Origin: an uncultured Eubacteriales bacterium
Lineage (GTDB): Bacteria > Bacillota > Clostridia > Oscillospirales > Ruminococcaceae
DNA: 44,253 nucleotides
Direction: 5' to 3'
Assembly: GCA_900319075.1 (NCBI GenBank)
Contig: ONMZ01000011.1
Location: forward strand, 1 to 44,253
The notes below the pieces were generated by a model. It did not search any database, was not told where the DNA came from, and saw only the letters and a list, made by a program, of their open reading frames with translations. The first letter of the stretch is position 1; each line of letters starts with the position of its first letter. Position numbers and translations under genes: made by a program. Positions 16,134-40,989 of this stretch are shown here, piece by piece.

Positions 16134-16163
16134 TACGACCGCCCCCTTCTTCATTTCTCGAAA

Positions 16164-16368: not shown

Positions 16369-16382
16369 AGACAACGTTATCA
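16369..16382. promoter_or_regulatory. Candidate LacI-family operator, upstream copy at metY1
   Basis: AGACAACGTTATCA matches 12 of 14 bases of the TGATAACGTTATCA core found three times upstream of mccB. Its centre lies 103 bp before that of the promoter-proximal copy. Confidence 0.55.
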
Positions 16383-16470: not shown

Positions 16471-16486
16471 GTGATAACGATGTCAC
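16471..16486. promoter_or_regulatory. LacI-family operator at metY1 promoter
   Basis: GTGATAACGATGTCAC differs in two positions from the perfect palindrome GTGATAACGTTATCAC seen near mccB. It ends 9 bp before the -35 box, the same spacing as at mccB. Confidence 0.7.
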
Positions 16487-16495
16487 GTTTTTTTG

Positions 16496-16524
16496 TTGAC
16501 CCACAGGCAGTTTTAGGCTACACT
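16496..16524 (+). promoter_or_regulatory. metY1 operon promoter
   Basis: TTGACC (16496-16501), 17-bp spacer, TACACT (16519-16524), predicted start near 16531. The operator 16471-16486 is centred near -52. Confidence 0.7.
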
Positions 16525-19511: not shown

Positions 19512-19521
19512 AACATCAGTC

Positions 19522-19546
19522 GGGCGGTGGAATAAAGCCGCCCTTT
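19522..19546 (+). other. Intercistronic hairpin between binding protein and permease
   Basis: GGGCGG, 10-nt loop, CCGCCC and three T. Hairpins at this place commonly protect or attenuate mRNA so that the binding protein is made in excess over the membrane parts. Role is inferred. Confidence 0.6.
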
Positions 19547-19572
19547 GAGTTCAAAGGTCAGGAGAGATACTT

Positions 19573-20655: not shown

Positions 20656-21431
20656 GCAGCAGTATCAGCATATCGCGTGTGAACAGGGTATACACCGATA
20701 CCGACGGCAATACCGTCAACGCGCTTGCCGATGTCAGCCTTGATATCAAGGCTGGGGAGTTTATTTCGATAATCGGTCCCTCGGGCTGCGGAAAGACAAC
20801 GCTCCTGCGCCTTATCGCAGGACTTGATAAACCGCAGTCCGGCGAGCTTTCTATCGACGAGCGCACAATAAAGGACGTTTCGACCGAGCGCGGATATGTT
20901 TTTCAGCAGGGAGGGCTTTTTCCGTGGCTGACGGTCGAAAAAAACATAGCATACGGCTTGAAGGCAAGGGGAGTGTTCAAGCGTGACAGGTCAAAGGTCA
21001 GCGAATATATCTCGCTGGTCGGGCTTGACGGCTTCGAGAGCGCCTACCCGCATCAGATATCGGGCGGCATGGCACAAAGAGTCGCAATAGCAAGGGCGCT
21101 GATAAACGAGCCCAAAGCCCTGCTGCTTGACGAGCCAATGGGCGCGCTTGATTCTTTCACAAGGGCAGACCTTCAGGATAAGCTTATCGAGCTGTGGAAG
21201 CAAAAGGGCACGACCATGATACTTGTCACACACGACATCGACGAGGCGATATACCTCAGCGACCGCATCGTGATAATGACACCTCGCCCGGGCAAGATAA
21301 GCAGCATCGTAAACGTTGACCTGCCAAGACCTCGTCACAGGGGCGGCGGAGAGTTTCTTGCCCTGAGAAAGTCGATACTTGAATTTTTCGAGCTTGCGCA
21401 GGCACAGCCGCAGCCCGAGTATATTATATAG
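20652..21431 (+). CDS. ABC transporter ATP-binding protein, SsuB/TauB-like
   Basis: This 259-residue ATPase energises the SsuABC-type importer. Walker A GPSGCGKTT is at 42-50, the Q-loop at about 85, signature SGGMAQR at 137-143, Walker B LLLDEP at 157-162, and the switch His at 194. The start at 20652 overlaps the permease stop (ATGA); an ATG eight codons upstream is less likely. The FQQGGLFPWLTVEKNI segment is typical of the nitrate/sulfonate/taurine branch. Confidence 0.9.
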   Translation: MSSSISISRVNRVYTDTDGNTVNALADVSLDIKAGEFISIIGPSGCGKTTLLRLIAGLDKPQSGELSIDERTIKDVSTERGYVFQQGGLFPWLTVEKNIAYGLKARGVFKRDRSKVSEYISLVGLDGFESAYPHQISGGMAQRVAIARALINEPKALLLDEPMGALDSFTRADLQDKLIELWKQKGTTMILVTHDIDEAIYLSDRIVIMTPRPGKISSIVNVDLPRPRHRGGGEFLALRKSILEFFELAQAQPQPEYII

Positions 21432-24381: not shown

Positions 24382-25455
24382 GTGTCGTTGAAGGAAATTG
24401 CACAGATGACAGGAGTTTCCGTGTCTACCGTAGGCAGGATACTAAACGATCCAAAGCACAGATGCTCTGATGAGCAGGTGCGTAAAAGGGTCCTTGAGGC
24501 GGCTCGAGAGATAAACTATATCCCAAACGCAAATGCCAGAAATCTCAAATCGGGGGGCAGCCTGGGCGATAAGATATATTCTGTGAATATATTGCTCACA
24601 AGGTTTTCCAGCGAGACTGCCGATCCGTTTTATGACGAGCTTCTTATGCAGCTGGAAAAAGAACTGCGAAACAGCGGCTGCATAATTGCCAACGTGTGGC
24701 ATAACGCAGAGTTTTCTGATGAAAGATCCGGCAGGGCGGATAATCTCTCTGCGCTTGTTGATTCGCTTTACGATGAAAATTCTCAAAAGCATGACGGGCT
24801 TATCATCATAGGGAAGGTCACAAGGCGTGGGCTGCGTGTGCTTAAAACCAAGGAAAAGAATATAGTTTCCATAAACCGCAACTCCACCAACTATGAGGTG
24901 GACGAGGTCCTTTGCGACGGCAAAAGGATAGCACGTGAGGCTGTGGCGTACCTTGCACGGCTGGGACACACAAAGATAGCCTATGTGGGCGACTGCCATA
25001 ACGAATCCCGCTTTGCAGGCTATCAGGCGGCGCTTGCGGATATGCATCTTGCGCCGGACATCGACTATGTTTTTGATACCTCACCCAACGAGCATAACGG
25101 GCTTATGGCATACGACTATTTCAAATCACTTGCAGACCCGCCTACGGCTGTTTATTGTGCAAACGATATTCTCGCTGTGGGGTTCATAAACGCCTTCGGA
25201 AAGCGCAGGCAAAAGCACTATCTGCCCTCTGTGATATCAAGTGACGATATAGATGCGGCTCAGTACACCAAGCCCATGCTGACAACGATATCACTGCCGA
25301 AGTCCGACATGGTGCGCTTTGCGCTGATGCTTCTGCTTGACAGGATAAAGGGCGGTCACAAGATCGTCTCACGCATCGAGCTTGAAGGAACACTGATGAT
25401 ACGGGAAAGCTGCCGCAGTTACAGCGAAATAACTGAACCGGAGTATTATATCTGA
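24382..25455 (+). CDS. LacI-family transcriptional regulator
   Basis: This 357-residue regulator begins with a LacI helix-turn-helix (SLKEIAQMTGVSVSTVGRIL), a hinge ending in NANARNLKSG, then a sugar-binding-protein-like effector domain. It starts with GTG at 24382 after an AAAGGAG site. Three perfect palindromes lie just downstream of it, before mccB, and a related copy lies at metY1, so it is the obvious candidate for both operons. LacI proteins usually sense sugars or nucleosides; a role in organosulfur use would be unusual. The effector cannot be predicted. Confidence 0.9.
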   Translation: MSLKEIAQMTGVSVSTVGRILNDPKHRCSDEQVRKRVLEAAREINYIPNANARNLKSGGSLGDKIYSVNILLTRFSSETADPFYDELLMQLEKELRNSGCIIANVWHNAEFSDERSGRADNLSALVDSLYDENSQKHDGLIIIGKVTRRGLRVLKTKEKNIVSINRNSTNYEVDEVLCDGKRIAREAVAYLARLGHTKIAYVGDCHNESRFAGYQAALADMHLAPDIDYVFDTSPNEHNGLMAYDYFKSLADPPTAVYCANDILAVGFINAFGKRRQKHYLPSVISSDDIDAAQYTKPMLTTISLPKSDMVRFALMLLLDRIKGGHKIVSRIELEGTLMIRESCRSYSEITEPEYYI

Positions 25456-25471
25456 CATGATGCGGTCAAAC

Positions 25472-25487
25472 ATGATAACGTTATCAT
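25472..25487. promoter_or_regulatory. LacI-family operator O1
   Basis: ATGATAACGTTATCAT, a perfect 16-bp palindrome with central CG, 17 bp after the stop of the LacI-family gene. Confidence 0.8.
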
Positions 25488-25548
25488 TATAACAGGCGCA
25501 AAAGTGTGTTCAGACTGCATTTTAGCGCACAAAGTCCCTGTTTCAAGC

Positions 25549-25564
25549 GTGATAACGTTATCAC
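25549..25564. promoter_or_regulatory. LacI-family operator O2
   Basis: GTGATAACGTTATCAC, perfect 16-bp palindrome, centred 77 bp from O1 and 114 bp from O3. Confidence 0.85.
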
Positions 25565-25662
25565 AATGTAAAACTGCTTAACGATGATTTAACATTTACG
25601 TTACCTTTTCTTCGGATGATCACCGCAAATAACGTATATTCACAAGGGGCAGACTGCCGGGT

Positions 25663-25678
25663 GTGATAACGTTATCAC
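25663..25678. promoter_or_regulatory. LacI-family operator O3, promoter-proximal
   Basis: GTGATAACGTTATCAC, perfect palindrome ending 9 bp before the mccB -35 box. It is centred near -52 relative to the predicted start. Confidence 0.87.
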
Positions 25679-25687: not shown

Positions 25688-25716
25688 TTGACTTATCCGA
25701 AGTTTTCATTTACAAT
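25688..25716 (+). promoter_or_regulatory. Promoter of the mccBA and nitrogenase-like operon
   Basis: TTGACT (25688-25693), 17-bp spacer, TACAAT (25711-25716). Predicted start near 25723. The 313-bp region between the LacI-family gene and mccB holds this promoter, three LacI operators and one Rrf2-type site; no other gene is seen. Confidence 0.83.
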
Positions 25717-25723
25717 AAAACCA

Positions 25724-25741
25724 TACCAAACAGATAGGTAA
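25724..25741. promoter_or_regulatory. Rrf2/CymR-type operator at the mccB transcription start
   Basis: TACCAAACAGATAGGTAA matches the motif TACCAANNCNATAGGAAA found at the suf and metY2 promoters, with two mismatches. It begins 7 bp after the -10 box, exactly as the copy at 39515 does in metY2. Confidence 0.7.
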
Positions 25742-25768
25742 ACTATGAAAACGAAGGGAAGAATATTT

Positions 25769-26923
25769 ATGAGTTACAAAAGCATCGATACAGCCCTTAT
25801 CCACGGCGGTATTTCCATAGATGAGCGCACAGGCGCAGTCAATGTCCCCATCTACCAGACATCCACCTTCAAACAGGACGGACTTGGAAAGATGAGAGGA
25901 TACGAGTATTCAAGAACGGGAAATCCTACCCGTGAGGCACTTGAAAAGCTTATCGCTGAGCTTGAGGGAGGATATGCAGGCTTTGCATTTGCCAGCGGTC
26001 TTGCCGCTGAAACAGCGGTGCTGAGTCTTTTGCATTCAGGCGACAGGGTGCTTATCTCCTCAAACGTCTACGGGGGAACGTTCAGACTGCTGAATAACGT
26101 CTTTGACCACTTTAATATCACCTACACTATTTCTGATACCGAAAATCCCGAGGCTTTTGAAAATGATATTACGTTCGATGTAAAGGCGGTGCTTCTTGAA
26201 AGCCCGGCAAATCCCCTCATGACAGTTACGGATATAAGAAAGATCGCACAGATAGCTCACGAACACGGTCTTTTGGTTATTGTGGATAACACCTTTATGA
26301 CGCCCTACCTGCAAAGGCCTATCTCCCTTGGCGCAGATATCGTGGTCCACAGCGCAACAAAGTATCTTGGGGGACACAGCGACGTTGTGGCAGGACTTGC
26401 CATTGCAAAGACAAAAGAGCTTGCCGATAAGATCGCCTTTGTTCAGAACTCCACAGGGGGAGTTCTTCCGCCCTTTGACAGTTTTTTGCTGATAAGAGGC
26501 ATAAAAACCCTTGGAGTAAGGCTTGACAGACACGTGGAAAATGCGCTGGCTGCCGCAAACTTCCTCAGCAGTCACAGCGCAGTTAAGAGCGTGCATTATC
26601 CCGGGCTTGAAACAGACAAGGGCTACGAAATAAATAAGTCGCAGGCTAAAAACGGCGGCGTTATGATCTCTTTTGAGCTAAAAGACGGGTATGATATTAA
26701 AAAGTTCTTTGAGAGCCTTGAGCTTATCACCCTTGCGGAAAGCCTCGGGGGAGTTGAATCACTTGTGTGTCACCCATCAACAATGACACACGCATCTATT
26801 CCCGAGGAGATACGTAAAAAGGTCGGCATCACCGACGGACTTATAAGACTGTCCATAGGCATTGAGGATATAAACGATATACTTGAAGATCTTAAACAGG
26901 CGATAAACAGCTCAAAATTGTGA
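25769..26923 (+). CDS. mccB: Cystathionine gamma-lyase type enzyme (gamma-synthase possible)
   Basis: This 384-residue PLP enzyme of the Cys/Met metabolism family resembles MccB (YrhB) of Bacillus. It splits cystathionine to cysteine, ammonia and 2-oxobutyrate in reverse transsulfuration, and can also release sulfide. The PLP lysine is Lys198 in HSATKYLGGHS; YEYSRTGNPT and VQNSTGGVLPP are present, and the C-terminus has ESLGGVESL. A gamma-synthase role cannot be excluded. The next gene is the mccA partner. ATG at 25769 is chosen (AAGGGAAG site). It is the first gene of the operon with the nitrogenase-like genes. Confidence 0.88.
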   Translation: MSYKSIDTALIHGGISIDERTGAVNVPIYQTSTFKQDGLGKMRGYEYSRTGNPTREALEKLIAELEGGYAGFAFASGLAAETAVLSLLHSGDRVLISSNVYGGTFRLLNNVFDHFNITYTISDTENPEAFENDITFDVKAVLLESPANPLMTVTDIRKIAQIAHEHGLLVIVDNTFMTPYLQRPISLGADIVVHSATKYLGGHSDVVAGLAIAKTKELADKIAFVQNSTGGVLPPFDSFLLIRGIKTLGVRLDRHVENALAAANFLSSHSAVKSVHYPGLETDKGYEINKSQAKNGGVMISFELKDGYDIKKFFESLELITLAESLGGVESLVCHPSTMTHASIPEEIRKKVGITDGLIRLSIGIEDINDILEDLKQAINSSKL

Positions 26924-26933
26924 GGTAAGATAT

Positions 26934-27842
26934 ATGCTGTATGAAAATATGCATCAGCTCGTTGGCAATACGCCGCTTGTGGAGCTTGTGAATATGGGGG
27001 TCTCCCCCGAAGTACATATTTTTGCAAAACTTGAAATGTATAACCCTTCCGGAAGCGTTAAGGATCGTATCGGTAAGTATATGATAGAGTGCGCTGAAAA
27101 AGAGGGAAGGCTTAAAAAAGGCGGCACGATAATTGAAGCCACCGCAGGAAACACCGGACTTGGCATCGCATTCGCTGCACTTGGAAAAGGCTACAGGGTC
27201 ATCTTCACAGTCCCAACAAAGTTTTCCGCAGAAAAACAGGCACTTTTGCGTGCGTTCGGCGCAGAGGTGATAAATACGCCTCGTGAAGAGGGAATGCTGG
27301 GAGCGGTGAAAAAAGCTGAAGAGCTTAAAGCGCAGATACCTGACGCTATTTCCCTTGATCAATTTAAAAATCCCGGCAATCCCCTTGCCCACTACGAAAC
27401 CACAGGCAAGGAGATATGGGAGGATATCGGCGGAAAGGTAACACACATAGTGGCAGGTGCAGGAAGCGGCGGAACATATACGGGCATAGTCAGGTATATC
27501 AAACAGCAGGACCCGGCTGTTCAGGGTGTACTTGCGGACCCGGAGGGTTCGACTATCGGCGGCGGAGAGCACTTTGACTACAACATTGAAGGAATAGGAA
27601 ATGATTTTATACCCGATACAATGGATATCAGTCTTGTGGATAAGGTCGTCAAGGTCAATGACCGGGAGGCATTCGCCACCGTGCGTGACCTTGCCCGCAA
27701 CGAGGGGATAATCGCAGGTTCTTCGTCAGGTGCTGCAATGGCAGCGGCTTTGAAGCTTGCAAAAACACTTGACAGGGGAAACATTGTCGTTGTATTTCCC
27801 GACCGGGGAGACAGATATTTCAGCACGGGATTATTTGGATGA
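26934..27842 (+). CDS. mccA: Cystathionine beta-synthase / cysteine synthase family protein, MccA-like
   Basis: This 302-residue fold-type II PLP enzyme has Lys43 in PSGSVKDR and the substrate loop EATAGNTG, as in MccA (YrhA) of Bacillus (cysteine synthases usually have TSGNTG there, as the second copy at 40990 does). The reaction is probably condensation of homocysteine with O-acetylserine or serine to cystathionine. An LADPEGS and GGGE pair also matches MccA. It follows mccB by 10 nt, forming a homocysteine-to-cysteine pair. Specificity is inferred by motif, not measured. Confidence 0.88.
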   Translation: MLYENMHQLVGNTPLVELVNMGVSPEVHIFAKLEMYNPSGSVKDRIGKYMIECAEKEGRLKKGGTIIEATAGNTGLGIAFAALGKGYRVIFTVPTKFSAEKQALLRAFGAEVINTPREEGMLGAVKKAEELKAQIPDAISLDQFKNPGNPLAHYETTGKEIWEDIGGKVTHIVAGAGSGGTYTGIVRYIKQQDPAVQGVLADPEGSTIGGGEHFDYNIEGIGNDFIPDTMDISLVDKVVKVNDREAFATVRDLARNEGIIAGSSSGAAMAAALKLAKTLDRGNIVVVFPDRGDRYFSTGLFG

Positions 27843-27852
27843 CGGTGATATA

Positions 27853-28224
27853 ATGATCTATCTGATAGCATTTGCAAGCTCTGATGGAGTTAATATTGAC
27901 AGACATTTCGGAAATGCGGAAAAGTTTTATATTGTAAAGCTTGATACCCGGAAGCTTGACGGGGATATAGTCGAACAAAAAACTGTATCACCTGCCTGCA
28001 TGGGAGGAATACATAAGATCTCAGGGTTTGATGGGGTACTTGAAGCCCTTGGAGGTGTAAGCGCCATTGTCGCACAGCGAATTGGAAACGGCGCACGGGA
28101 GTATGTTACACAAAAGGGGATCGCTGTATATCAGATGCCGCTTCAGATCGAACAGGCTTTGTGTCTGCTTATGGAAGAAAAACAATGGGAGGTTGACAAA
28201 TGGCTATCTCATACGAAGAATTGA
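27853..28224 (+). CDS. NifX/NafY-type FeMo-cofactor-binding domain protein (copy 1)
   Basis: This 123-residue protein has the dinitrogenase iron-molybdenum cofactor domain fold pattern: MIYLIAFASSDGVNIDRHFG and AEKFYIV at the N-terminus, followed by an alternating strand/helix body. Such proteins carry NifB-cofactor or related clusters between maturase and apo-enzyme. It begins 10 nt after mccA and overlaps nifB by 25 nt, so the cofactor carrier and maturase are translationally linked. One further copy lies at the end of the operon. Confidence 0.86.
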   Translation: MIYLIAFASSDGVNIDRHFGNAEKFYIVKLDTRKLDGDIVEQKTVSPACMGGIHKISGFDGVLEALGGVSAIVAQRIGNGAREYVTQKGIAVYQMPLQIEQALCLLMEEKQWEVDKWLSHTKN

Positions 28225-29081
28225 CAACAAAGCATCCATGCTTTGCCAGAGGAGATAAAAACGGCAGCGGACGGATACATCTTCCCATAAGCCCGAGCTG
28301 TAATATTGAGTGTAAATTCTGTGAGCGCAGCTTTAACAGCTACGAGGTACGGCCGGGCGTTAGCAGAACGGTCATCACACCCCACGAGGCGATAGATGCC
28401 ATACGCAGAGCTTTGCAGTTGTGCCCCGATATAAAGGTGGCAGGTATCGCAGGCCCGGGAGATACTCTTGCAAGCCCTTTTGCCCTGGAAACTTTCAGAC
28501 TTATAAAAAAAGAGTTCCCGGAGCTTGTAAAGTGCATGAGCACCAACGGACTTTTGCTTGCCGAAAAGGCACAGGAGGTCATTGATGTGGGGATAGACTC
28601 GCTGACAGTCACAGTCAATGCAGTCGATCCGCTGATCGAGGCGCAGCTCAACGACGGGATCGTTTGGCACGGTGAGCATATAACGGGTATTGAAGCAGCA
28701 CAGATACTTATCCAGCAGCAGCTAAAGGGCATCGAGCTTGTAAGCGATGCCGGATTGACCGTTAAGGTGAACACAGTTCTTGTTCCCGGTATAAATGACG
28801 GACATATTGAAAAGATAGCGATGACCGTTGCAGAAAAAGGGGCAAGCATATATAACATCATTCCGCTTATACCCCAGCACAAGCTCAAAGAATGCCGTGA
28901 ACCGGACTGCATGGAGCTTGAAAGGGCGATACTCATAGCATCAAAGCACATAGATGTTTTCAGGCATTGTCAGAGATGCCGTGCAGATGCGGTGGGGATC
29001 CCCGGCGGTGAGGACTTTGGAGACAGGGTCTACCTTGATCTGCAAAGGCTTTCAAAAAAGGATACATTTTCACATGGTTAA
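28200..29081 (+). CDS. nifB: NifB-like radical SAM cofactor maturase (short form)
   Basis: This 293-residue radical SAM enzyme has CNIECKFC (Cys34, 38, 41) for the SAM cluster. NifB-specific KHPC (Cys14) and FRHCQRCRADAVG (Cys257, 260) ligate the auxiliary clusters. AGIAGPGD, MSTNGL and KVNTVLVPGIND are also NifB signatures. NifB fuses two 4Fe-4S clusters with a carbide to make an 8Fe precursor. This copy lacks the C-terminal NifX domain, but separate NifX-like genes flank it. A GGGAGG site precedes the ATG. Confidence 0.94.
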   Translation: MAISYEELTTKHPCFARGDKNGSGRIHLPISPSCNIECKFCERSFNSYEVRPGVSRTVITPHEAIDAIRRALQLCPDIKVAGIAGPGDTLASPFALETFRLIKKEFPELVKCMSTNGLLLAEKAQEVIDVGIDSLTVTVNAVDPLIEAQLNDGIVWHGEHITGIEAAQILIQQQLKGIELVSDAGLTVKVNTVLVPGINDGHIEKIAMTVAEKGASIYNIIPLIPQHKLKECREPDCMELERAILIASKHIDVFRHCQRCRADAVGIPGGEDFGDRVYLDLQRLSKKDTFSHG

Positions 29082-29086
29082 TATAA

Positions 29087-29962
<876 letters not shown>

Positions 29963-29976
29963 TAGGAGAGTGCTTT

Positions 29977-31443
29977 ATGAGTAAAGTCAATTTAGATATA
30001 CCCGAGGTGGAAATAAGGGAGATACGTCTTGGCTCCATAACGGGATTTCAGGGAACTGCCAAAGAGCTTGTTTCAGCCTGCTCCGGCTGCGGGAAATTAA
30101 AGGACAAGAACCGTTCGTTCAGCCAGTGCCTTGGCTGCGGAACGTCAAATGCCGCTTGTACGCTGACGCTTATCCAGGACGCAGCGATAATATCCCACGG
30201 ACCTGTGGGCTGCTCCACCTGTCTGCACGAGTTTGCTTTTACATATCGTGTGAACGCTTATCTGAGACAGCTTGAACACCCCACACAAAGAAAGATATTC
30301 TCCTCCAACCTTGAAGAAAAGGACACCATTTACGGAGGCGCTAAAAAACTTGAATCTGCCATCCGTGAGGTTTTCAAAAGAGCAAAGCCAAAGGCTATCT
30401 TTGTGATAACCACCTGTGCGGCAGGCATTATCGGTGACGATGTGGAAAGCGTGACCAACGCCGCACAAAAGGAGCTTGGTATACCCGTTGTGGCAGTTTT
30501 CTGCGAGGGCTTCCGTTCAAAGATGTGGACATCGGGTTTTGATGCAGGCTATCACGGCATTGCAAGAAAAATAATCAAGCCCGCAAGACAAAAGAGGAAC
30601 ATCATCAACGTTATAAACTTCTGGGGAAGCGACATCTTCCGTGAGTGGTTTGCAGAGTTTGGGTATGAACCAAATTACATCACCCCCTTTGCGACCGTTG
30701 ACAGCCTTAGTTATTCCAGCGAGGCGGCGCTTACGGTGCAGGCTTGCTCAACGCTGGGCAGCTATCTGGGTGCGGCACTGGAACAGTCCTTCGGTGTGCC
30801 GGAGATAAGGAACTCTCCGCCATACGGAATAGTTCAGACAGACCGCTGGTTCAGAGAGCTTGGTCAGATAATCGGCAAGGAAAAAGAGGTGGAAGAGTTC
30901 CTTGTCCGCAAAAAGAAGGAGTATATGCCAAAGATAGAGGCGCTGCGTGAAAAGCTCAAAGGCAAGACTGCATACGTTACAGCAGGCGCATCTCACGGAC
31001 ACTCTCTTCTTGCTCTTCTTAAAGAGCTTGGCATGGAGCCGAGAGGAGCGGCTATATTCCACCACGACCCAAAGTATGATAACGAGGACGAGCGTGCGGA
31101 TACTCTCAAACACACCGTTGAGGATTATGGTGATGTGGAAAATTACAACGTCTGCAACAAGCAGGAGTTTGAGCTTGTCAACGTGCTCAATAAGATCAAG
31201 CCCGATATACTCCTTGCACGCCACGGGGGAATGACCTTGTGGGGCGCAAAGCTCGGCATACCCTCACTTCTTGTGGGTGACGAGCATTTCGGAATGGGCT
31301 ACGAGGGACTTGTTAATTACGGTGAGCGTATACTTGAAACTATCGACAACGATGAGTTTGTAAAGAACCTTGCAAAGCATTCGTCAAATCCATATACAGA
31401 TTGGTGGCTTCAGCAGGAGCCTTACACATTCTTGGGAAAGTAA
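29977..31443 (+). CDS. NifD-like catalytic subunit of a nitrogenase-like reductase
   Basis: This 488-residue protein has three NifD-type P-cluster cysteines: Cys54 (or 51/61) in the CLGCGTSNAAC stretch, Cys79 in GPVGCS, and Cys147 in TTCAAGIIGDD. Spacing fits Azotobacter NifD. Candidate cofactor ligands are Cys257 in VQACSTLGSYLG and His437 in GDEHFGMGYEG, comparable to NifD Cys275 and His442. A further CSGCGK (Cys35, 38) precedes the first cysteine, so the N-terminus has two CxxC pairs. It pairs with the NifK-like gene 12 nt downstream. Function is most like MarD by context; this is an inference. Confidence 0.9.
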   Translation: MSKVNLDIPEVEIREIRLGSITGFQGTAKELVSACSGCGKLKDKNRSFSQCLGCGTSNAACTLTLIQDAAIISHGPVGCSTCLHEFAFTYRVNAYLRQLEHPTQRKIFSSNLEEKDTIYGGAKKLESAIREVFKRAKPKAIFVITTCAAGIIGDDVESVTNAAQKELGIPVVAVFCEGFRSKMWTSGFDAGYHGIARKIIKPARQKRNIINVINFWGSDIFREWFAEFGYEPNYITPFATVDSLSYSSEAALTVQACSTLGSYLGAALEQSFGVPEIRNSPPYGIVQTDRWFRELGQIIGKEKEVEEFLVRKKKEYMPKIEALREKLKGKTAYVTAGASHGHSLLALLKELGMEPRGAAIFHHDPKYDNEDERADTLKHTVEDYGDVENYNVCNKQEFELVNVLNKIKPDILLARHGGMTLWGAKLGIPSLLVGDEHFGMGYEGLVNYGERILETIDNDEFVKNLAKHSSNPYTDWWLQQEPYTFLGK

Positions 31444-31455
31444 AGGAGAATTCAT

Positions 31456-32796
31456 ATGGCAGGATTGATTGAACAGGAGAGATATACCTGTGCGATAGGA
31501 GCTTTGCAAACGGTGGTCGCCATACCCCGTGCAGTTCCAATACTTCATTCGGGACCCGGCTGCGGAGTGATGATAAAAGGCTTTTTTGAGCGCTCGGCAG
31601 GGTATGCAGGGGGAGAGACTGCACCCTGTACAAATTTCAGCGAGAAAGAGGTCGTTTTCGGCGGAACGGACAGACTTCGCAATATTATAAAAAACACCTA
31701 CAAGGTGCTTGATACCGATCTTCAGGTGGTAGTTACCGGCTGTACCGCAGGCATTGTGGGAGATGATGTGGCAAGCGTTACAGATGAATTTCTCTACGAG
31801 GAGGACAGACCCATTGTCCACGTTGAAACTTCCGGTTTCAAATCCAACAACTATGTTTCCCACTCGGCTGTGGTAAATGCAATAATTGACCAGTATGTAA
31901 GCAGATTTGAAGATCAGAATCCATCACGCTCTGAGAAAAACCTGGTGAACCTTATTGCATCTATCCCTTACCAGGATCAGTTCTGGAAGGGTAATCTCAA
32001 AGAGTATAAGCGGCTGCTTGAAGGATTGGGACTTAAAGTCAATATCCTTTTCGGACCGCACAGCGGCGGCGTAAAAGAGTGGCAGACTATCCCCAAGGCA
32101 AACTTTAACGTCTTTGTTTCCCCCTGGTACGGCGAGCCTATAGTCAAAAATCTGCAAAGGCGCTACGGTCAGCCTTACTATCAGTTCGGTTATATGCCCA
32201 TCGGTGCAAACGAAACAACTAAGTTCTTAAACGGTGTTGTTGATTTCGCACTTGAAAACGGCGCACAGATCGACGAGGAAAAGGCAAGGGCATTCATCAC
32301 TGAGGAGGAAAAGGCATACTACGAGGAGATAGACAATCTGGCAACATTTCTTCTTGAGTTCCGCTACGGTCTGCCAAGCTATGTGCATATCCTTCACGAT
32401 GCAGGATATGTGACTGGACTGACAAAATTTCTTCTGCACGAAACCGGACTTGTCCCCAAGGAGCAGTTTATTGTTGACAATGTTCCGGCAAAGTATCAGC
32501 AGCAGATCTCGGCAGACATCAAGTCTGCATCAGACAAGCGTGAGATACCTGTGTACTTTGACCCTGACGCAGGTGCAATGCAGGATATTATCCGGGGGCT
32601 TGACCACAAGGGCAGGGGACTTATCCTGGGAAGCGGCTGGGACAAAGAGCTTGCCGCTGAGATAAATGCAGATTTTCTTTCTATTGCCTGTCCCACACCG
32701 TACCGTATCGTGCTGACCACAAACTATGTTGGTTATTCCGGCGGTCTGCGTGTTATCGAGGATATCTACAATACTGCATTAGCTTCATATAAATAA
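31456..32796 (+). CDS. NifK-like subunit of a nitrogenase-like reductase
   Basis: This 446-residue protein is a NifK homologue lacking the long N-terminal extension of Mo-NifK. P-cluster-type cysteines are Cys12 (RYTCAIGAL), Cys36 (GPGCG) and Cys96 (TGCTAGIVGDD), spaced almost as NifK Cys70, 95 and 153. With the NifD-like protein it should form an alpha2beta2 core. The pair keeps P-cluster ligands on both sides, so it is not CfbD-like, which has a simple homodimer. The gene has an AAAGGAG site 12 nt after the D gene. Confidence 0.91.
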   Translation: MAGLIEQERYTCAIGALQTVVAIPRAVPILHSGPGCGVMIKGFFERSAGYAGGETAPCTNFSEKEVVFGGTDRLRNIIKNTYKVLDTDLQVVVTGCTAGIVGDDVASVTDEFLYEEDRPIVHVETSGFKSNNYVSHSAVVNAIIDQYVSRFEDQNPSRSEKNLVNLIASIPYQDQFWKGNLKEYKRLLEGLGLKVNILFGPHSGGVKEWQTIPKANFNVFVSPWYGEPIVKNLQRRYGQPYYQFGYMPIGANETTKFLNGVVDFALENGAQIDEEKARAFITEEEKAYYEEIDNLATFLLEFRYGLPSYVHILHDAGYVTGLTKFLLHETGLVPKEQFIVDNVPAKYQQQISADIKSASDKREIPVYFDPDAGAMQDIIRGLDHKGRGLILGSGWDKELAAEINADFLSIACPTPYRIVLTTNYVGYSGGLRVIEDIYNTALASYK

Positions 32797-32802
32797 CGTA
32801 AA

Positions 32803-32827
32803 AAGCTGCCGTTTTATCCGGCAGCTT
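32803..32827 (+). other. Intercistronic hairpin between the NifK-like and second NifX-like genes
   Basis: AAGCTGCCG, 7-nt loop, CGGCAGCTT: a perfect 9-bp stem 6 nt after the NifK-like stop. No T-run follows. It could stabilise the upstream mRNA end or reduce readthrough into the last gene. Confidence 0.65.
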
Positions 32828-32849
32828 GTCCTTTAAAGGAGGGGATATT

Positions 32850-33182
32850 ATGGCAAGGATCGCAGCTGCAACAAGCGACGGCTTTACGGTAAACGAGCAT
32901 TTCGGTCACGCAAAGTTTTTCCGTGTGTATGATCTGGGTGAGAAGGGTCATACCTTTGTAGAAATACGTGATGCGGTGGCTGTCTGTCAGCACAGCCTCG
33001 GACACGATACCACACGTTTTGATAAGATAATTGAATTGCTCTCAGACTGTGATGCGGTGCTGGTGCAAAAGATCGGAGAGGGTGCGGCGGCTTACCTTAT
33101 CTCAAAAGGCGTAAGGGTCTTTGAGGTCAGCGGAAGCATTGATGCGGTACTTAAAAAGTTCATTGAGAACGGAATACTTTAA
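32850..33182 (+). CDS. NifX/NafY-type FeMo-cofactor-binding domain protein (copy 2)
   Basis: This 110-residue protein has the same domain as copy 1: IAAATSDGFTVNEHFGHAKFFRVYDL and, later, VLVQKIGEGAAAYLISKGVRVFEVSG. A good AAAGGAGGGG site precedes the ATG at 32850. It probably carries or protects the cofactor made by the NifB-like protein. It ends the operon; the terminator hairpin lies immediately after it. A difference in His and Cys content from copy 1 may mean a different cofactor state, but this is a guess. Confidence 0.86.
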   Translation: MARIAAATSDGFTVNEHFGHAKFFRVYDLGEKGHTFVEIRDAVAVCQHSLGHDTTRFDKIIELLSDCDAVLVQKIGEGAAAYLISKGVRVFEVSGSIDAVLKKFIENGIL

Positions 33183-33185
33183 AAA

Positions 33186-33216
33186 AAGAGCACTGCTTTA
33201 GTTTAGCAGTGCTCTT
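33186..33216. terminator. Terminator between the nitrogenase-like operon and metA
   Basis: AAGAGCACTGCT, 7-nt loop, AGCAGTGCTCTT. On the minus strand a T7 run follows, so it is strong for metA; on the plus strand the tail is weaker (GATGTTTT). Confidence 0.85.
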
Positions 33217-33225: not shown

Positions 33226-34128
33226 TCAGAACTCGTATGGGGTTATCTGATATACAAAGTAGTTCAGCCAGTTGGTGAACAGAAGGTTTGATGCGCTCAG
33301 CCAGCGGCTCACAGGTTCTTTATCCGGGTCGTCGTCAGGGAAATAGTTTTTCGGCACATCAGGCGAAAGCCCCTTGTCGGTATCACGGATATATTCTTCT
33401 GAAAGCCTGTAAAGGTCATACTCGGGATGACCGTTGACGAACACATTGCCTTTGTTATCTGTGATGATATAAACACCTGTCTGGTCAGACTCGGCTATAA
33501 TGGTCAGATCATCGTTGCTGAGTATATCATCTTTATTCAGACCTGTATATCTCGAATGAGGCGCATAAAAGTTTTTGTCGATCCCTCGCATAAGCTCGCT
33601 TTGCGGATCAGTTATGGTGTGACTGAACACTCCTGAAAGCTTTTTGTCAAGCTCTGATTTGCGTACACCGTAATGATAGTACAGTCCTGCCTGAGCTCCC
33701 CAGCACAAATAAAGCGTCGAGGTAACGTGAAGCGCTGCCCATTCAAATATAGCACTCAGCTCTCCCCAGTAGTCAACATCTTCGTACTCCAGCTTTTCTA
33801 CTGGTGCGCCTGTAACGATCAATCCGTCAAAGTACTTGTTTTCTATCTGATAAAACGGCTGATAGTTGTTGAGAAGATATGATGCCGGGGTGTTTTTGTA
33901 CTGATGTGTTACGAGCCTGATAAATGTCACCTCTATCTGCAAAGGTGAATTGGAAAGCAGTCTTAAAAGCTGCAATTCGGTGTTTTGCTTATCCGGCATC
34001 AGGTTCAGCACAGCGATCTTGAGCTGACGTATATCCTGATGCTGCGCACGTTCCTCAGTCATTGCAAATATATTTTCTTTTTTCAGCTTCTCAATGACCG
34101 GTAAGGTCTCTTTCAATCTTAATGGCAT
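33226..34128 (-). CDS. metA: Homoserine O-acetyltransferase, MetA fold
   Basis: This 300-residue enzyme activates homoserine. The nucleophile is Cys142 (LYLCWGAQAG), and NGHPEYD carries the catalytic His and Glu. Position 111 is Glu (GAPVE), which in this family selects acetyl-CoA rather than succinyl-CoA, where Gly is found. The product O-acetylhomoserine is the substrate of MetY copies in this window. It is the last gene of the suf-rrf2-metA operon, 18 nt after rrf2. A GGAGG site precedes the ATG. Confidence 0.95.
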   Translation of the reverse strand: MPLRLKETLPVIEKLKKENIFAMTEERAQHQDIRQLKIAVLNLMPDKQNTELQLLRLLSNSPLQIEVTFIRLVTHQYKNTPASYLLNNYQPFYQIENKYFDGLIVTGAPVEKLEYEDVDYWGELSAIFEWAALHVTSTLYLCWGAQAGLYYHYGVRKSELDKKLSGVFSHTITDPQSELMRGIDKNFYAPHSRYTGLNKDDILSNDDLTIIAESDQTGVYIITDNKGNVFVNGHPEYDLYRLSEEYIRDTDKGLSPDVPKNYFPDDDPDKEPVSRWLSASNLLFTNWLNYFVYQITPYEF

Positions 34129-34146: not shown

Positions 34147-34596
34147 CTAAATGTAGTACATATAGTTTTGCTCTTCAGCAAGACCCTGCTTGTATTCTTT
34201 TATAAGATCATCAAGGGTCATCTTTTCTATGAAACGCAGCATATTGCTGTTGAGATTTGACCACAGACAGTTGTTTACAGATTCACGTATCCCATCAGAG
34301 TGCCCGTCACATTTTTCATATGTATTTGCAAGGATATTGTTGTCAAGGGTATTGAGGATATCGCAAAGCAGTATCTTGTTTGCAGGACGTGAAAGCCGGT
34401 ATCCGCCGTAAATGCCTTTATGTGACCTTACAAACTTCCCCTGACGCAAAACAAGAAGTATCTGTTCAAGGTATTTTTGAGAGATGTTCTGCCGCCGGGC
34501 TATATCCGAGGAACGAACAGCCGTCCCGTCCTCGGAATGGATACCTATATCAGTCAGCGCAACAATACCCAGCTCAACTTTTGTATTTATTTTCAT
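34147..34596 (-). CDS. Rrf2-family regulator, CymR-like
   Basis: This 149-residue regulator has the Rrf2 winged helix (VELGIVALTDIG, SSDIARRQNISQKYLEQIL and SHKGIYGGYRL). Only two Cys in the sensor loop (KCDGHSDG, NNCLW) remain of the three IscR cluster ligands. The C-terminus ends in NYMYYI, close to the YMFYI tail of B. subtilis CymR, which docks in CysK. It sits between sufU and metA. ATG at 34596 (MKINTKV) is preferred over longer forms. It probably binds TACCAANNCNATAGGAAA at the suf, metY2 and mccB promoters; not proven. Confidence 0.85.
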   Translation of the reverse strand: MKINTKVELGIVALTDIGIHSEDGTAVRSSDIARRQNISQKYLEQILLVLRQGKFVRSHKGIYGGYRLSRPANKILLCDILNTLDNNILANTYEKCDGHSDGIRESVNNCLWSNLNSNMLRFIEKMTLDDLIKEYKQGLAEEQNYMYYI

Positions 34597-34621
34597 TCCG
34601 CCCTTTCTCCCCTTAATATAT

Positions 34622-35050
34622 TTATTTCTTTTGTTCAAGTATCTTTTCCATGGTGTTCCAGCTGAGCAGTGCACATTTCACTCTGGCAGGCATTTTTGAA
34701 ACGCTGTGCAAAGCGCCTGCCTCTTCAAGCTCATCGATCTCCTCGTCGGAAGCCTCGCCGGATATCATCTTTCTGAAAAGATCTGTGTAGTGCCTTGCCT
34801 CGTCAAGAGTTTTACCTATAATAAGTTCAAGCATTATATCCGCACTTGCCTGTGAGACTGCACACCCTATACCGGTAAAGGAACCGTCTGCGATAATGCC
34901 GTCGTGAATGTCAAGATTAAGGGATATGTTATCTCCGCAGGTGGGATTCAATCCCTTGCAGCAGTCGGTCGCACATTCAAGCTCATGCTTGTGCAGCGGG
35001 TGCAGATTGTGATCGGCAAGGACCTCTCCGTAAAAGCTGTCAGTTGTCAT
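34622..35050 (-). CDS. sufU: SufU-type Fe-S scaffold / sulfur transfer protein
   Basis: This 142-residue protein has NPTCGD (Cys38, Asp40), GIGCAVSQASA (Cys63) and RVKCALLSW (Cys126), the zinc/sulfur-accepting set of SufU. In Gram-positives SufU takes sulfur from SufS for the SufBCD scaffold. Its start overlaps sufS by 11 nt. Length and motifs are typical; the Asp separates it from many Nif-type IscU proteins only in part. Confidence 0.93.
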   Translation of the reverse strand: MTTDSFYGEVLADHNLHPLHKHELECATDCCKGLNPTCGDNISLNLDIHDGIIADGSFTGIGCAVSQASADIMLELIIGKTLDEARHYTDLFRKMISGEASDEEIDELEEAGALHSVSKMPARVKCALLSWNTMEKILEQKK

Positions 35051-36263
35051 AGCCCATTCTCCTTCTTATTGAACCCAGTGTTTGTATAAACCTTGTTATA
35101 TCCTGTTCATCGTTATAAAATGCAAGACTCATTCTTGCTGTTGACTGTACATCAAGATACTGGTGCAAAGGCTGTGCACAGTGATGACCGGCTCGTATGG
35201 CAATGTTGTCGGCATCAAATATGGCTGCGATGTCGTGAGGATGAACACCGTCTATGGTAAATGTCAGTATCCCGTGGTGATCTTCCGGATCGTTTGCACC
35301 TATTATATTTACGTGGGGGATTTTTTTCATCTCATCAAAAGCCAGTGCTGTAAGCTGATCTTCACGCTCTTGAATGGTTTTAAATCCGATCTCTTTTATA
35401 TAGTCTATTGCAGCAGCCAGTCCGGCAGCACCGCCGGCGTTGACTGTGCCTGCCTCAAACTTATGAGGAAGCTCTGCATAGGTGGCATCTTCACGGGTGA
35501 CATATTCGATCATCTCGCCGCCTGAAAGAAACGGCGGCATTTTTTCAAGTATTTCCTGCCGTGCATAAAGCACACCGATCCCCATGGGAGCAAGCATTTT
35601 GTGACCGGAAAAAGCGAGAAAATCAACGTTAAGCTCCTTCACGTCAATAGGGATATGCGCCGCACTCTGTGCAGCATCGCAGACGATGAGTGTGCCGTTT
35701 TTATGGGCAATGTCTGCAAATTCCTTTATTGGATTGAGCCTGCCGAAAATGTTAGATATCTGTGCGATGGCAAAAAGCTTGGTGCGTGGGGTGAGAGCTT
35801 TTTCAAGATCCTTTGCTGTGTATTTTCCCCTTTTGTCACATTCAAGAAATTTCAGGACCGCTCCCTTTTGCTTTGCAAGTATCTGCCAGGGCAAAAGGTT
35901 TGAATGGTGTTCGCTTATGCCTACAAGTATTTCGTCGCCCTGGTCAATGTTTGCCAATCCCCAGCTGAATGCGATCAGGTTCAGACTTTCGGTGGCATTT
36001 CGTGTAAAGATTATCTCTTTTGTGCTGTTTGCACCGATAAATTCCTTTACACTTTTACGGGCGTTCTCGTAGACCTCTGTTGCTTTTACGCTAAGCTCGT
36101 AAAGCCCTCTCAGAGGGTTGGCGTTTTGCTCGATGTAATACTTTGCCAGGGTGTCTATGACCCTTTTGGGTTTTTGCTGGGTTGCCGAATTATCAAGGTA
36201 AACAAGATCTTTGTATTTATTAAAAACAGGGAAGTTTTCTTTGCCTAAAAGAGAGTTACTCAT
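35040..36263 (-). CDS. sufS: Cysteine desulfurase, SufS type
   Basis: This 407-residue PLP enzyme removes sulfur from cysteine as persulfide for Fe-S cluster assembly. PLP Lys222 lies in FSGHKMLAP, the PLP-stacking His in SEHHSNLLPW, and the catalytic Cys362 in RAGHHCAQP, the short-loop SufS pattern. ATG at 36263 (MSNSLLG) is chosen with its GAGGT site; it overlaps sufD by 8 nt. It links cysteine supply here directly to Fe-S cluster demand of the nitrogenase-like proteins. Confidence 0.95.
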   Translation of the reverse strand: MSNSLLGKENFPVFNKYKDLVYLDNSATQQKPKRVIDTLAKYYIEQNANPLRGLYELSVKATEVYENARKSVKEFIGANSTKEIIFTRNATESLNLIAFSWGLANIDQGDEILVGISEHHSNLLPWQILAKQKGAVLKFLECDKRGKYTAKDLEKALTPRTKLFAIAQISNIFGRLNPIKEFADIAHKNGTLIVCDAAQSAAHIPIDVKELNVDFLAFSGHKMLAPMGIGVLYARQEILEKMPPFLSGGEMIEYVTREDATYAELPHKFEAGTVNAGGAAGLAAAIDYIKEIGFKTIQEREDQLTALAFDEMKKIPHVNIIGANDPEDHHGILTFTIDGVHPHDIAAIFDADNIAIRAGHHCAQPLHQYLDVQSTARMSLAFYNDEQDITRFIQTLGSIRRRMGYDN

Positions 36264-37137
36264 TTTTATTACCTCGTCCGATCTTATTGTATATGCGCTG
36301 GCGGATCTGTTCATCTGAAATAGTATCCACTATCTGTGCGATCTTTGAAAATGCCATAAGCTGTACGATCTTTTCATCCGGCAAGCCTCTTGACTGCATA
36401 TAGAAAATATGCTGCTCATCAACTCGTCCGATAGATGCGCCGTGGCTGCCCTGAACATCCTCCTCAGCACAAAGTATCAATGGGACAGTTTTGTTTTTCA
36501 CCTTTTCACCCATAAGCAAAACATCCTCGTTTTCAGCGCCCACCGCACCGCAGCAGCCTTTGGCAAAGTCGATGGTACCCTTAAAGATCTTCTCGGAGCT
36601 GCCGTTCATAACGCCCTTTGCAGCTATCTGCGAATTGGTTTTTCTTCCAAGATGATCTGCCAAAAGATTAATGTCCAGTTTGTCACTGCCGCCGAGAAGA
36701 TAGCCGATGTTAGCTGTAAATACTGATTTTCTGCCCCCAAGAGTGGTGTTTATATCGCTTAGTGCGTCACCCGGCTCAAGAAAGATCTGTATCAGCTCAA
36801 ATCTTGCATCGTCGCTAAGCTTTGCATCAAGCTTTGCCATTGTCTGTGCCTTGCCTTCAAAAACCTGCACCAGTGTGACAGCGGAGCTGTTTTCCGCCTT
36901 GACAGTTGTACGGATACTTGCTTTATCCGTGGGGTCTATAAACATTACAGCCCTTTTGATCTCACCGCTTCGTGCTGTGATCTCAAAAGCTGTGCTTTGC
37001 AAAACCTCCGACTCGCTTTTTTCTTCGTCAAGCGTGACAGTTTTTATGTCAGATGCATCAGCTTCTCTTTGTGTATCGTTCACTCCCAGCCAGGAAAAGG
37101 TGGGGACGGGAAGTTTGTTTAGTTTTATCATACTCAT
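36256..37137 (-). CDS. sufD: SufD-like Fe-S assembly protein
   Basis: This protein has about 293 residues, shorter than SufD of E. coli (over 400). The C-terminal beta-helix part is clear: NSQIAAKGVMNGSS, CCGAVGAENEDVLLMGEK and SHGASIGRVDEQHIFYMQSRGL, the SufB/SufD family signature. It partners with SufB and SufC as a scaffold. ATG at 37137 lies after an AGGGTG site, 5 nt after the sufB stop. The short N-terminal domain is common in Clostridia. Confidence 0.9.
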   Translation of the reverse strand: MSMIKLNKLPVPTFSWLGVNDTQREADASDIKTVTLDEEKSESEVLQSTAFEITARSGEIKRAVMFIDPTDKASIRTTVKAENSSAVTLVQVFEGKAQTMAKLDAKLSDDARFELIQIFLEPGDALSDINTTLGGRKSVFTANIGYLLGGSDKLDINLLADHLGRKTNSQIAAKGVMNGSSEKIFKGTIDFAKGCCGAVGAENEDVLLMGEKVKNKTVPLILCAEEDVQGSHGASIGRVDEQHIFYMQSRGLPDEKIVQLMAFSKIAQIVDTISDEQIRQRIYNKIGRGNKNE

Positions 37138-37142
37138 TTTTA

Positions 37143-38552
37143 TCACCCTATGCTTCCGTGCATTTCAAGTCCTATGAGGTTGTTCATCTCCATGGCATAT
37201 TCAAGGGGAAGCTCCTTTGAAACGTTGTCTGCAAAACCTCTGACTATCATAGCTTTTGCCTCTTGCTCACTCATTCCTCTGCTCATGAGATAAAACACAG
37301 ACTCATCGCTTATGCGGCCTATTTTAGCCTCGTGTCCGATGTCTGCAAACTTTGTGCGTATGTCCATTGCCGGCACCGTGTCTGAACGTGAAATGCTGTC
37401 CAGCATAAGCGATTCGCAGCTTACTGAGCTTTTGCTGCCGTGGGCCTCCGGCTTGACCACGACTGCACTTCTGAAGGTGCTTATTCCGCCTGATTTGCTA
37501 ATGGACTTGGTGTTCATATAGGATGAAGTATTCGGTGCATTGTGGACCATTTTTGCACCTGTATCAAGGTTTTGCCCCTCGCCTGCAAAGGTTATGCCTG
37601 TGAACTCTGCACGGGCACCCTCGCCGTTGAGAATGCTCATGGGATACAGATACGAAACGTGGGAGCCAAAGCTGCCGGATACCCACTCTATCTTCCCCCC
37701 CTGAGAAACAAGCGCACGCTTGGTGTTAAGGTTGTACATATTCTTTGACCAGTTCTCGATGGTGGAATAGCGCAGCGTTGCGTTTTTGCCCACATAAAGC
37801 TCCACGCAGCCTGCGTGCAGACCTGCCTCGTAATACTTCGGGGCAGAGCACCCTTCGATGAAATGCAGATAGGAGTCTTCTTCCAGGATTATCAAAGTGT
37901 GTTCAAACTGTCCTGCGCCTTTTGCGTTGAGCCTGAAATAGGATTGCAGGGGTATCTCAAGCCTTACACCCTTTGGAACATACACAAACGATCCCCCCGA
38001 CCATACCGCACCGTGGAGCGCCGCAAACTTGTGGTCTGTGGGCGGAACCAGCTTCATAAAGTGAGATCTTATCATCTCAGCGTAACGCTCATCATGCATT
38101 GCGCTTTCAAGGTCGGTGTAAACTACTCCCGACTGTGCGACCTCTTTTCTTACATTGTGATAAACAAGCTCGCTGTCATACTGTGCCCCCACACCTGCAA
38201 GCGATTCTCTCTCCGCTTGGGGTATGCCAAGGTTTTCAAAGGTCTTTTTTATATCCTCGGGAACATCGTTCCAGTCTGTGTTCATGCGGCTTTTCTGCCT
38301 TATGTATGTGATTATCCTGTCAACGTCAAGTTCGTCTATGGACGGCCCCCAGTTGACCATTTTTATCTTATTGTATATATCCAGCGAGTGCAGACGCAGA
38401 TCTCTCATCCATTCCGGGTCGCCCTTTTCCTGTGAGATCTCTCTGACTATTTCCTCTGTAAGGCCGCTGCCAAGGAAGCTGCTTTCGTCCTCATCAAATC
38501 TGAAATCATAGCGTGAACGGTCGATGTCCGCAACATATGTTTTTTCCCCCAT
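37143..38552 (-). CDS. sufB: SufB Fe-S scaffold subunit
   Basis: This 469-residue subunit has the SufB beta-helix core: HYIEGC-like LHFIEGCSAPKY, NLNTKRALV, GSKSSVSCESLMLD and the IGRISDESVFYLMSRGMSE end. Cluster assembly takes place at the SufB-SufD interface with ATP use by SufC. ATG at 38552 (MGEKTY) has an AAGGAG site. It follows sufC by only 4 nt. Confidence 0.95.
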   Translation of the reverse strand: MGEKTYVADIDRSRYDFRFDEDESSFLGSGLTEEIVREISQEKGDPEWMRDLRLHSLDIYNKIKMVNWGPSIDELDVDRIITYIRQKSRMNTDWNDVPEDIKKTFENLGIPQAERESLAGVGAQYDSELVYHNVRKEVAQSGVVYTDLESAMHDERYAEMIRSHFMKLVPPTDHKFAALHGAVWSGGSFVYVPKGVRLEIPLQSYFRLNAKGAGQFEHTLIILEEDSYLHFIEGCSAPKYYEAGLHAGCVELYVGKNATLRYSTIENWSKNMYNLNTKRALVSQGGKIEWVSGSFGSHVSYLYPMSILNGEGARAEFTGITFAGEGQNLDTGAKMVHNAPNTSSYMNTKSISKSGGISTFRSAVVVKPEAHGSKSSVSCESLMLDSISRSDTVPAMDIRTKFADIGHEAKIGRISDESVFYLMSRGMSEQEAKAMIVRGFADNVSKELPLEYAMEMNNLIGLEMHGSIG

Positions 38553-38556
38553 CATC

Positions 38557-40974: not shown

Positions 40975-40989
40975 AAAGGAGAGATTCTT

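Follow-up and report, generated by a model that had tools for sequence, protein, structure and literature searches.

A group IV-A nitrogenase-like operon from an uncultured Ruminococcaceae bacterium that probably serves sulfur scavenging

What reaction does a nitrogenase-like enzyme catalyze when its genes stand in one apparent operon with genes of cysteine and methionine metabolism? The question is raised by a 44,253-nt stretch of DNA (hereafter the window; positions 1-44,253 of contig ONMZ01000011.1, assembly GCA_900319075.1) from an uncultured Eubacteriales bacterium of the Ruminococcaceae, whose 2.26-Mb genome is 86.65% complete. Between a promoter-like start at 25688 and the end of a terminator-like hairpin at 33216, the window carries eight intact plus-strand open reading frames (ORFs) in the order mccB, mccA, NifX, NifB, NifH, NifD, NifK, NifX (Table 1), the two NifX-like proteins bracketing the NifB/H/D/K set. 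The intergenic gaps up to the NifK-like gene are 8-14 nt, except for one 25-nt NifX/NifB overlap, and 53 nt separate the NifK-like gene from the second NifX-like gene, in agreement with the gene content, strand and tight spacing given by an initial annotation of the same DNA. We consider it probable that the product of this operon is a group IV-A nitrogenase-like reductase with a role in sulfur scavenging, one that splits C-S bonds, with MetY and MccAB acting downstream. The gene set is not a product of chance, because five other genomes of the family, with D proteins 93-95% identical to that of the window, have the same gene order (in one of them, L021, the last NifX is absent from the gene calls). 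Searching 197 genomes of the family recovered D at E ≤ 1e-80 in 10, the window's own included; beyond the close relatives the same genes were found again in varying order. Among the best 80 of at least 573 confirmed loci, the nearest named D proteins (93-96%) belong to Ruminococcus and other Clostridiales bins, several labelled rumen, and to Ruminococcus albus, whose strains 8 (L047) and AR67 (L043) carry the operon; the window's host is thus probably related to rumen Ruminococcus. A search of viral contigs for D relatives found none.

MarBHDK of Rhodospirillum rubrum converts methylthio-alkanes to methanethiol and a hydrocarbon. The resemblance to this enzyme that had been noted from the DNA alone was borne out: the window D protein matched R. 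rubrum MarD (9fmg_A) with 441 bits, as against 134 bits for the best nitrogenase, and K matched MarK with 384 bits, the next match scoring 64 bits. The D model, predicted with good confidence (predicted local distance difference test, pLDDT, 82; predicted template-modelling score, pTM, 0.84), gave a template-modelling (TM) score of 0.90 by query length to 9fmg_A but only 0.65-0.73 to the nitrogenase chains among the 50 matches listed; for the partial chains of the other Mar entry, 9d9u, TM was 0.72-0.73 by query and 0.92-0.93 by target. We then built trees of D (61 rows) and K (49 rows), with ultrafast bootstrap (UFBoot) and SH-aLRT supports. Window D fell within a 31-row clade (100/99) that includes NfaDK of Endomicrobium proavitum, a termite bacterium, and NflDK1 of Heliophilum, and window K within a 22-row clade (100/100) with the same two. 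R. rubrum MarD fell in a 10-row clade (100/100), itself part of a 12-row group (100/100) that is distinct from the IV-A clade, and the K tree repeated this split; one D-like row, L139_13076, branched between these two groups, its support being weak (89/68). The window enzyme is therefore a member of group IV-A (Nfa). The possible new branch of the initial annotation is thus separate from Mar in both trees, but it had already been described as group IV-A.

Canonical nitrogenase was rejected by profile scores and by the D and K trees, which held NifD, NifE, NifK and NifN rows, and a Bch or CfbD assignment was rejected by profile scores, so that the initial exclusion of both true nitrogenase and CfbCD stands. 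The D/K phylogeny proposed at the time was run with Nif and Mar sets and gave IV-A a clade of its own, Bch and Cfb rows being in neither careful tree and the careful D tree omitting the long branches L131 and L137. Equivalents of Gln191/His195 and a placement in the NifDK clade were sought for window D and K and neither was found. NifEN was not found in the window's own genome at its 86.65% completeness; the six PF00148 matches there are the window D and K and four divergent proteins beside hydEF.

For wider comparison we assembled 84 IV-A loci (the best 80 of at least 573 confirmed, the window and three others, hence the part of the group nearest the window; membership, ≥55% identity to window D), of which 81 gave an intact D (L069, L102 and L103 did not) and 52 were kept at <88% identity. 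Using the residue positions given in the available text of the Mar structure paper (PMC12552129), we found that window D retains the three P-cluster Cys of MarD, the cofactor ligands Cys270 and His429, and Arg428, Trp195, Phe199, His375 and Cys73. Cys66, 73, 91, 158 and 270, Trp195, Phe199, His375 and Arg428 are conserved in 81/81 IV-A D proteins and His429 in 80/81. The three Cys of K are kept in 73, 73 and 74 of 75 rows, the radical-SAM Cys and C-terminal CxxC of the NifB-like protein in 46/46, and the cluster Cys of the NifH-like protein in 48/48. In the four NifD rows the Trp195 and Phe199 columns hold Gln and His, whereas Trp and Phe at these equivalents of NifD Gln191/His195, together with the MarD Arg-His pair, occur in all 31 IV-A tree rows, E. 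proavitum included. As judged from the alignment, these residues separate the group from NifD without fixing its substrate or proving Mar chemistry.

The neighbouring genes point to sulfur. As a control we used 20 nif loci, likewise from this phylum, chosen from 54 matching genomes among 348 searched, all above the NifD cut-off, lower-scoring nitrogenases being left out. Cys/Met pyridoxal-phosphate (PLP) or CBS/CysK genes lie within 6 kb of D in 32/52 IV-A loci and 0/20 nif loci (in 21/27 IV-A loci when only full 12-kb windows are counted), which upholds the sulfur link first proposed. An SsuA-type binding protein was near D in 19/52 IV-A and 0/20 nif loci by a fixed test. By contrast, NifI was beside 0/52 IV-A and 19/20 nif loci and NifE beside 0/52 and 20/20; the IV-A loci share descent, so Fisher values overstate their independence. 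Unsupervised clustering of the neighbours within 6 kb in the 52 loci returned K (45), MetY (25), NifX (24), NifB (22), ABC ATPases (20), CBS/CysK (17), NifH (17), mccB (16), SsuA (16) and SsuC (13), followed by an NlpA-type binding protein of the MetQ family (8) with its permease (7).

We also analyzed how the operon may be controlled. Three exact TGATAACGTTATCA palindromes, putative LacI operators, are the only exact copies in the 2.26-Mb genome, and all lie <300 bp before mccB. Sites with ≤3 mismatches number 14 in the window, as compared with 1.84 expected, and the spacing from the end of the closest operator to the -35 match is 10 bp in both the mccB and the MetY1 operon. When the window and related loci were counted together, 22/24 mccB copies and 12/14 MetY1 copies had upstream sites with ≤2 mismatches, the window's own MetY1 scoring 0 since an upstream TTG was taken as its start; in 562 kb of loci (two contigs counted twice, L020/L037 and L022/L046), 49/52 sites with ≤1 mismatch are upstream of mccB or MetY. 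No operator-like site was seen in six loci, E. proavitum among them, that lack a LacI gene in the stretch. MetY1 copies 84-90% identical to that of the window are near a LacI gene in 4/5 relatives' stretches. Because the TGATAACGTTATCA palindrome recurs in degenerate form before the MetY/importer operon, these results suggest that the two operons form one regulon; the local LacI regulator would bind the putative operators. LacI control, as first annotated, is thus probable, and the link to MetY is firmer than it was, the operon with the degenerate operators lying about 8 kb upstream. Across the whole genome, 36 sites have ≤2 mismatches (8 for a reversed-pattern control), 7 of them inside the window. 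A wider LacI regulon was rejected: the four 1-mismatch and two 2-mismatch sites considered outside the window all fall in coding sequences (rpoB, rpoC, an HrcA-like gene and two others, identified from translations), and further degenerate targets are possible among the other 23 two-mismatch sites, which this check left out.

Gene content, clade, ligand residues, context and operator-like repeats are read directly from the DNA; the enzyme is likely to work like Mar. The NifB-like and NifX-like proteins would make and carry a cluster, presumably of the [Fe8S9C] type, and the NifH-like protein would pass electrons to it, driven by ATP and via the P-cluster. DK would then reductively split the C-S bond of an organosulfur compound that probably enters by import. 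The released thiol, most likely methanethiol, would be combined with O-acetylhomoserine by MetY to give methionine, MccA and MccB would move that sulfur via homocysteine and cystathionine to cysteine, and the LacI regulator would act as a common switch for both operons, that of the reductase and that of MetY and the importer. A sulfite or sulfide product would need sulfite reductase or CysK, not reverse transsulfuration, and MetY with mccBA is what a route from methanethiol through methionine to cysteine needs. The PF01077 sulfite reductase match is absent in 15/22 chosen carriers, this genome and the complete E. proavitum genome among them, and is present in 7, one a congener; because 15/22 carriers are without it, a thiol or sulfide product is indicated, and we infer methanethiol. 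LuxS, a step on the way from S-adenosylhomocysteine to homocysteine, was found in 6/13 carriers tested, including this genome and E. proavitum, and in Clostridium sporosphaeroides it lies ~5 kb before D.

Several observations weigh against the sulfur-scavenging reading. The window enzyme lies outside the MarDK clade, and MarD pocket residue His194, beside the cluster, is Met in the window and Val, Ile or Met in 81/81 IV-A D proteins; it is His in 10/10 MarD-clade rows but in neither of the two rows that complete the 12-row group. Trp195, Phe199 and the Arg-His pair also occur in several other uncharacterised group IV rows. No Cys/Met gene lies within 6 kb of D in 20/52 IV-A loci; for six of these the full 12 kb was available, and in at least two of the six, L030 and L122, such genes occur farther out. 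Only 2/8 Mar-clade loci have Cys/Met PLP enzymes near D, and 5/8 have SsuA there. The name mccA is a reading aided by the adjoining mccB: its product scores about equally as cysteine synthase and cystathionine beta-synthase (354 vs 351 bits), two types inseparable by sequence, and in the pair of adjoining CGL-type and CBS-type genes the MccB type is the best match yet below its cut-off. LuxS is missing in 7/13 carriers, some 98-99% complete (the nucleosidase step was outside the search), and none of 11 sources had a SAM riboswitch at the Rfam gathering score. The main counter-evidence is that E. proavitum, with a single D/K pair, is reported to incorporate 15N2; with it go growth of Heliophilum on N2 without classical nif genes (PMC9147875, from the excerpts available) and a NifV match above cut-off, found in Heliophilum alone among 22 genomes, which favours a putative homocitrate cofactor there. 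Our gradings of this reading and of the competing ones are not mutually exclusive and may not sum to a whole.

The first rival is that the enzyme does just what R. rubrum Mar does, acting as a methylthio-alkane reductase on the substrates of that enzyme. The four gene types, the ligands, the Arg-His pair and the fold are all in common, but the separate clade in both trees, the replacement of His194 in every IV-A protein, and the presence in Pectinatus of a Mar-clade D/K beside a IV-A D/K, suggesting different substrates, make this unlikely.

A second rival holds that the group IV-A DK proteins form a true nitrogenase of minimal make-up, able to fix N2 in the absence of NifEN; this has been proposed for E. 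proavitum and for Heliophilum NflDK1. In the parts available to us, PMC11257099 terms E. proavitum NfaDK a functional group IV nitrogenase, and PMC9147875 reports 15N2 incorporation by this species with nfaDK as its only nif-like genes, predicts NflDK1 to be a nitrogenase, cites group IV-A as a nitrogenase made without NifEN, and predicts groups IV-VI in general to include sulfur functions. The D and K of E. proavitum, 70% and 65% identical to those of the window, are the sole two PF00148 matches in its complete genome, and since they are its only D/K pair we took them as the published NfaDK, equating them by locus, with protein accessions no part of the comparison. The cysteine and histidine ligands of the P-cluster and cofactor are present, as a nitrogenase would have them. 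Yet the genes of E. proavitum lie in a run of MetY, SsuA, SsuC, SsuB, D, K, NifX, mccB, mccA, NifB, NifX and NifH (eight of the twelve confirmed with Pfam), and the Trp/Phe replacement, the Arg-His pair and the lack of NifI and NifE described above set the whole group apart from nif loci. Heliophilum fasciatum NflDK1, which we identified with the copy in L107 because it is beside NifH and NifB, has D 62% and K 53% identical to those of the window and MetY in the same run; five other genomes have shorter NifV-like frames, scoring under the cut-off, close to their nif matches. Moreover, 6/14 chosen carrier genomes also have a nif system (PF00148 >330 bits; 8/14 have none by that measure), so that IV-A is not their sole candidate nitrogenase; three of the six were checked by gene content, and in G198 the nif system comes from a metagenome-bin contig of 4.4 kb. 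Reduction of acetylene cannot discriminate between the two functions, because Mar reduces acetylene too, according to the available text of PMC12552129. Taken together, we regard the nitrogenase explanation as quite unlikely.

A bifunctional enzyme, with C-S cleavage plus some N2 reduction, would make both the sulfur context and the 15N2 result right and so reconcile the sulfur-gene run of E. proavitum with its isotope data. In the portions available, PMC12552129 says that NifEN with the same cluster type reduces a little N2, but also that MarDK, the nearest characterised relative, shows no N2 reduction, and we give this compromise a low probability. Least likely by far is an enzyme like isethionate reductase (IsrBHDK), which would release sulfite from a sulfonate entering by an Ssu-type importer: SsuA-type proteins do occur near IV-A loci and Isr works with SsuCAB, but IsrD has a single P-cluster Cys out of three and lacks that of the cofactor, where window D has all four, IsrB resembles NifB in the radical SAM motif only where window B is NifB-like (PMC11423573), and most carriers lack PF01077.

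The genomic setting of group IV-A thus conflicts with its nitrogenase label, and the main value of this analysis is to expose that conflict. No paper linking the E. proavitum genes to sulfur was among the matches listed (best 20 of 40, and 15 of 326 in places), and North et al. 2020 and Zheng et al. 2016 might discuss such genes. Extending the sulfur-scavenging reading, we lean slightly towards the view that the whole group, including the E. proavitum enzyme and NflDK1, is a C-S reductase and not a nitrogenase, with a substrate that differs from those of Mar. This substrate would probably be an organosulfur compound taken up through an Ssu-type transporter, and for gut anaerobes a methylthio-sulfonate or methylthio-acid may be guessed. 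Papers, in the parts available, make group IV-A the branch outside groups I-III credited with N2 fixation. If the clade does scavenge sulfur, the exception of a NifEN-free nitrogenase falls, diazotrophy inferred from group IV-A genes is wrong, and group IV nifH calls in termite guts need re-examination. There would also be one more family of metalloenzymes that cleave C-S bonds anaerobically, with methane, ethane or ethylene as possible products, and it could be tested in rumen species that grow in culture, Ruminococcus albus for example.

Table 1. Coordinates of the operon, its putative control elements and the flanking genes in the window
Feature	Position	Strand	Basis
Promoter-like TTGACT-17-TACAAT	25688..25716	+	sigma70-like pattern match only
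mccB, cystathionine gamma-lyase / homocysteine desulfhydrase type	25769..26923	+	PF01053; best NCBIfam NF005810 549 bits (below cut-off of 594); best PDB 7d7o
mccA, cystathionine beta-synthase / cysteine synthase type	26934..27842	+	PF00291; PDB 5xw3, 5b1h
NifX-like protein 1	27853..28224	+	PF02579
NifB-like radical SAM protein, without NifX domain	28200..29081	+	TIGR01290 256 bits (below cut-off of 344)
NifH-like ATP-dependent reductase	29090..29962	+	PF00142; TIGR01287 above cut-off
NifD-like catalytic alpha subunit, group IV-A	29977..31443	+	Mar structure match, trees, residues, predicted fold
NifK-like catalytic beta subunit, group IV-A	31456..32796	+	MarK match, K tree, conserved Cys
NifX-like protein 2	32850..33182	+	PF02579
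Terminator-like hairpin, 12 pairs	33186..33216	both strands	pattern match only
Three exact TGATAACGTTATCA palindromes before mccB, putative LacI operators	25473, 25550, 25664 (25473..25677)	.	
LacI-family regulator	24382..25455	+	PF00356 + PF13377
Two degenerate operators upstream of MetY1, 2 mismatches each	16369-16382, 16472-16485	.	pattern search
Promoter-like TTGACC-17-TACACT, MetY operon	16496..16524	+	pattern match
MetY-like (MetY1) O-acetylhomoserine/O-acetylserine sulfhydrylase	16573..17862	+	TIGR01326 468 bits (below cut-off of 495)
ECF transporter S component	17890..18429	+	PF07155; TIGR04002 below cut-off
Ssu/Nrt/Tau-type ABC importer	18456..21431	+	binding protein 18456-19511, permease 19573-20655, ATPase 20628-21431
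LysR-family regulator, divergent from MetY/importer operon	15207..16154	-	Pfam HTH_1 + LysR_substrate
MetA homoserine acyltransferase	33226..34128	-	acetyl type by best score, below cut-off
Rrf2 regulator + SufU, SufS, SufD (below cut-off), SufB, SufC	34147..39303	-	profile matches
Second MetY (39694-40974) + CysK (40990-41922)	39694..41922	+	TIGR01326, TIGR01139 above cut-off

The genes flanking the operon are collected in Table 1. For the importer binding protein, the nearest solved structures are too distant to name a substrate. Positions 21508-23795 of the window hold a DUF4418 gene with an FtsX-type permease and an ATPase, and similar exporter genes occur near some IV-A loci (L066, L073, L083). 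A T-box leader was found by Rfam at 6672-6924 on the minus strand, far from the operon, and another in L074. Among the more distant loci, the plasmid NZ_CP128401.1 of Candidatus Chlorohelix (Chloroflexota; L030) carries a IV-A cluster with MetY and ABC importer genes, its D being 58% identical to that of the window. In Pectinatus (L136) and Sporomusa (L137-L139), several D/K pairs drawn from different clades share a neighbourhood with Ssu-type importer genes and Cys/Met enzymes; these sets look as if one H and one B served many substrates. In Heliophilum the NifB-like protein (L107:15047-16318; 423 aa) also matches NifX and is apparently fused, the two being separate genes in the window.

A further nitrogenase-like arrangement was seen beside hydrogenase genes. 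HydF, HydE, a nitrogenase-like H-D-K set present twice, HypF and HypD form one run in L007:5593-17707 (G000:C46), the only genome in which the full run was read, and gene calls give a similar run in L135 (G204:C75). Of 13 genomes tested for HydG, 8 of the Ruminococcus type gave no match above cut-off, and all 8 have [FeFe]-hydrogenase domains and six or ten PF00148 matches. It is speculation that these nfl pairs, with HypF and HypD, might replace HydG as the source of CO and cyanide.

Four known systems resemble the one described here. NfaHDK of E. proavitum is in the same D/K clade and has MetY, mccB, mccA, NifB, NifX and H in its run; NfaHDK and NflDK1 differ from the window in gene order, in having neither operators nor a LacI gene in the stretches analyzed, and in their published role, N2 fixation. 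MarBHDK of R. rubrum (PDB 9FMG, 9D9U) has the same B, H, D and K types (its gene order being taken from the name used in papers), the same cluster ligands and Arg-His hallmark, and is the best fold match, but D identity is 41%, the clade is separate, His194 is absent in the window, and the window operon includes mccBA and NifX. IsrBHDK of Rhodobacter capsulatus is also a nitrogenase-like sulfur enzyme with an Ssu importer, but it lacks most of the cluster ligands, its IsrB is NifB-like only in the radical SAM motif, and it releases sulfite (PMC11423573). Finally, MccA-MccB reverse transsulfuration uses a pair of adjacent PLP enzyme types that the window's putative mccBA pair resembles, the window pair sharing its operon with a nitrogenase-like enzyme.

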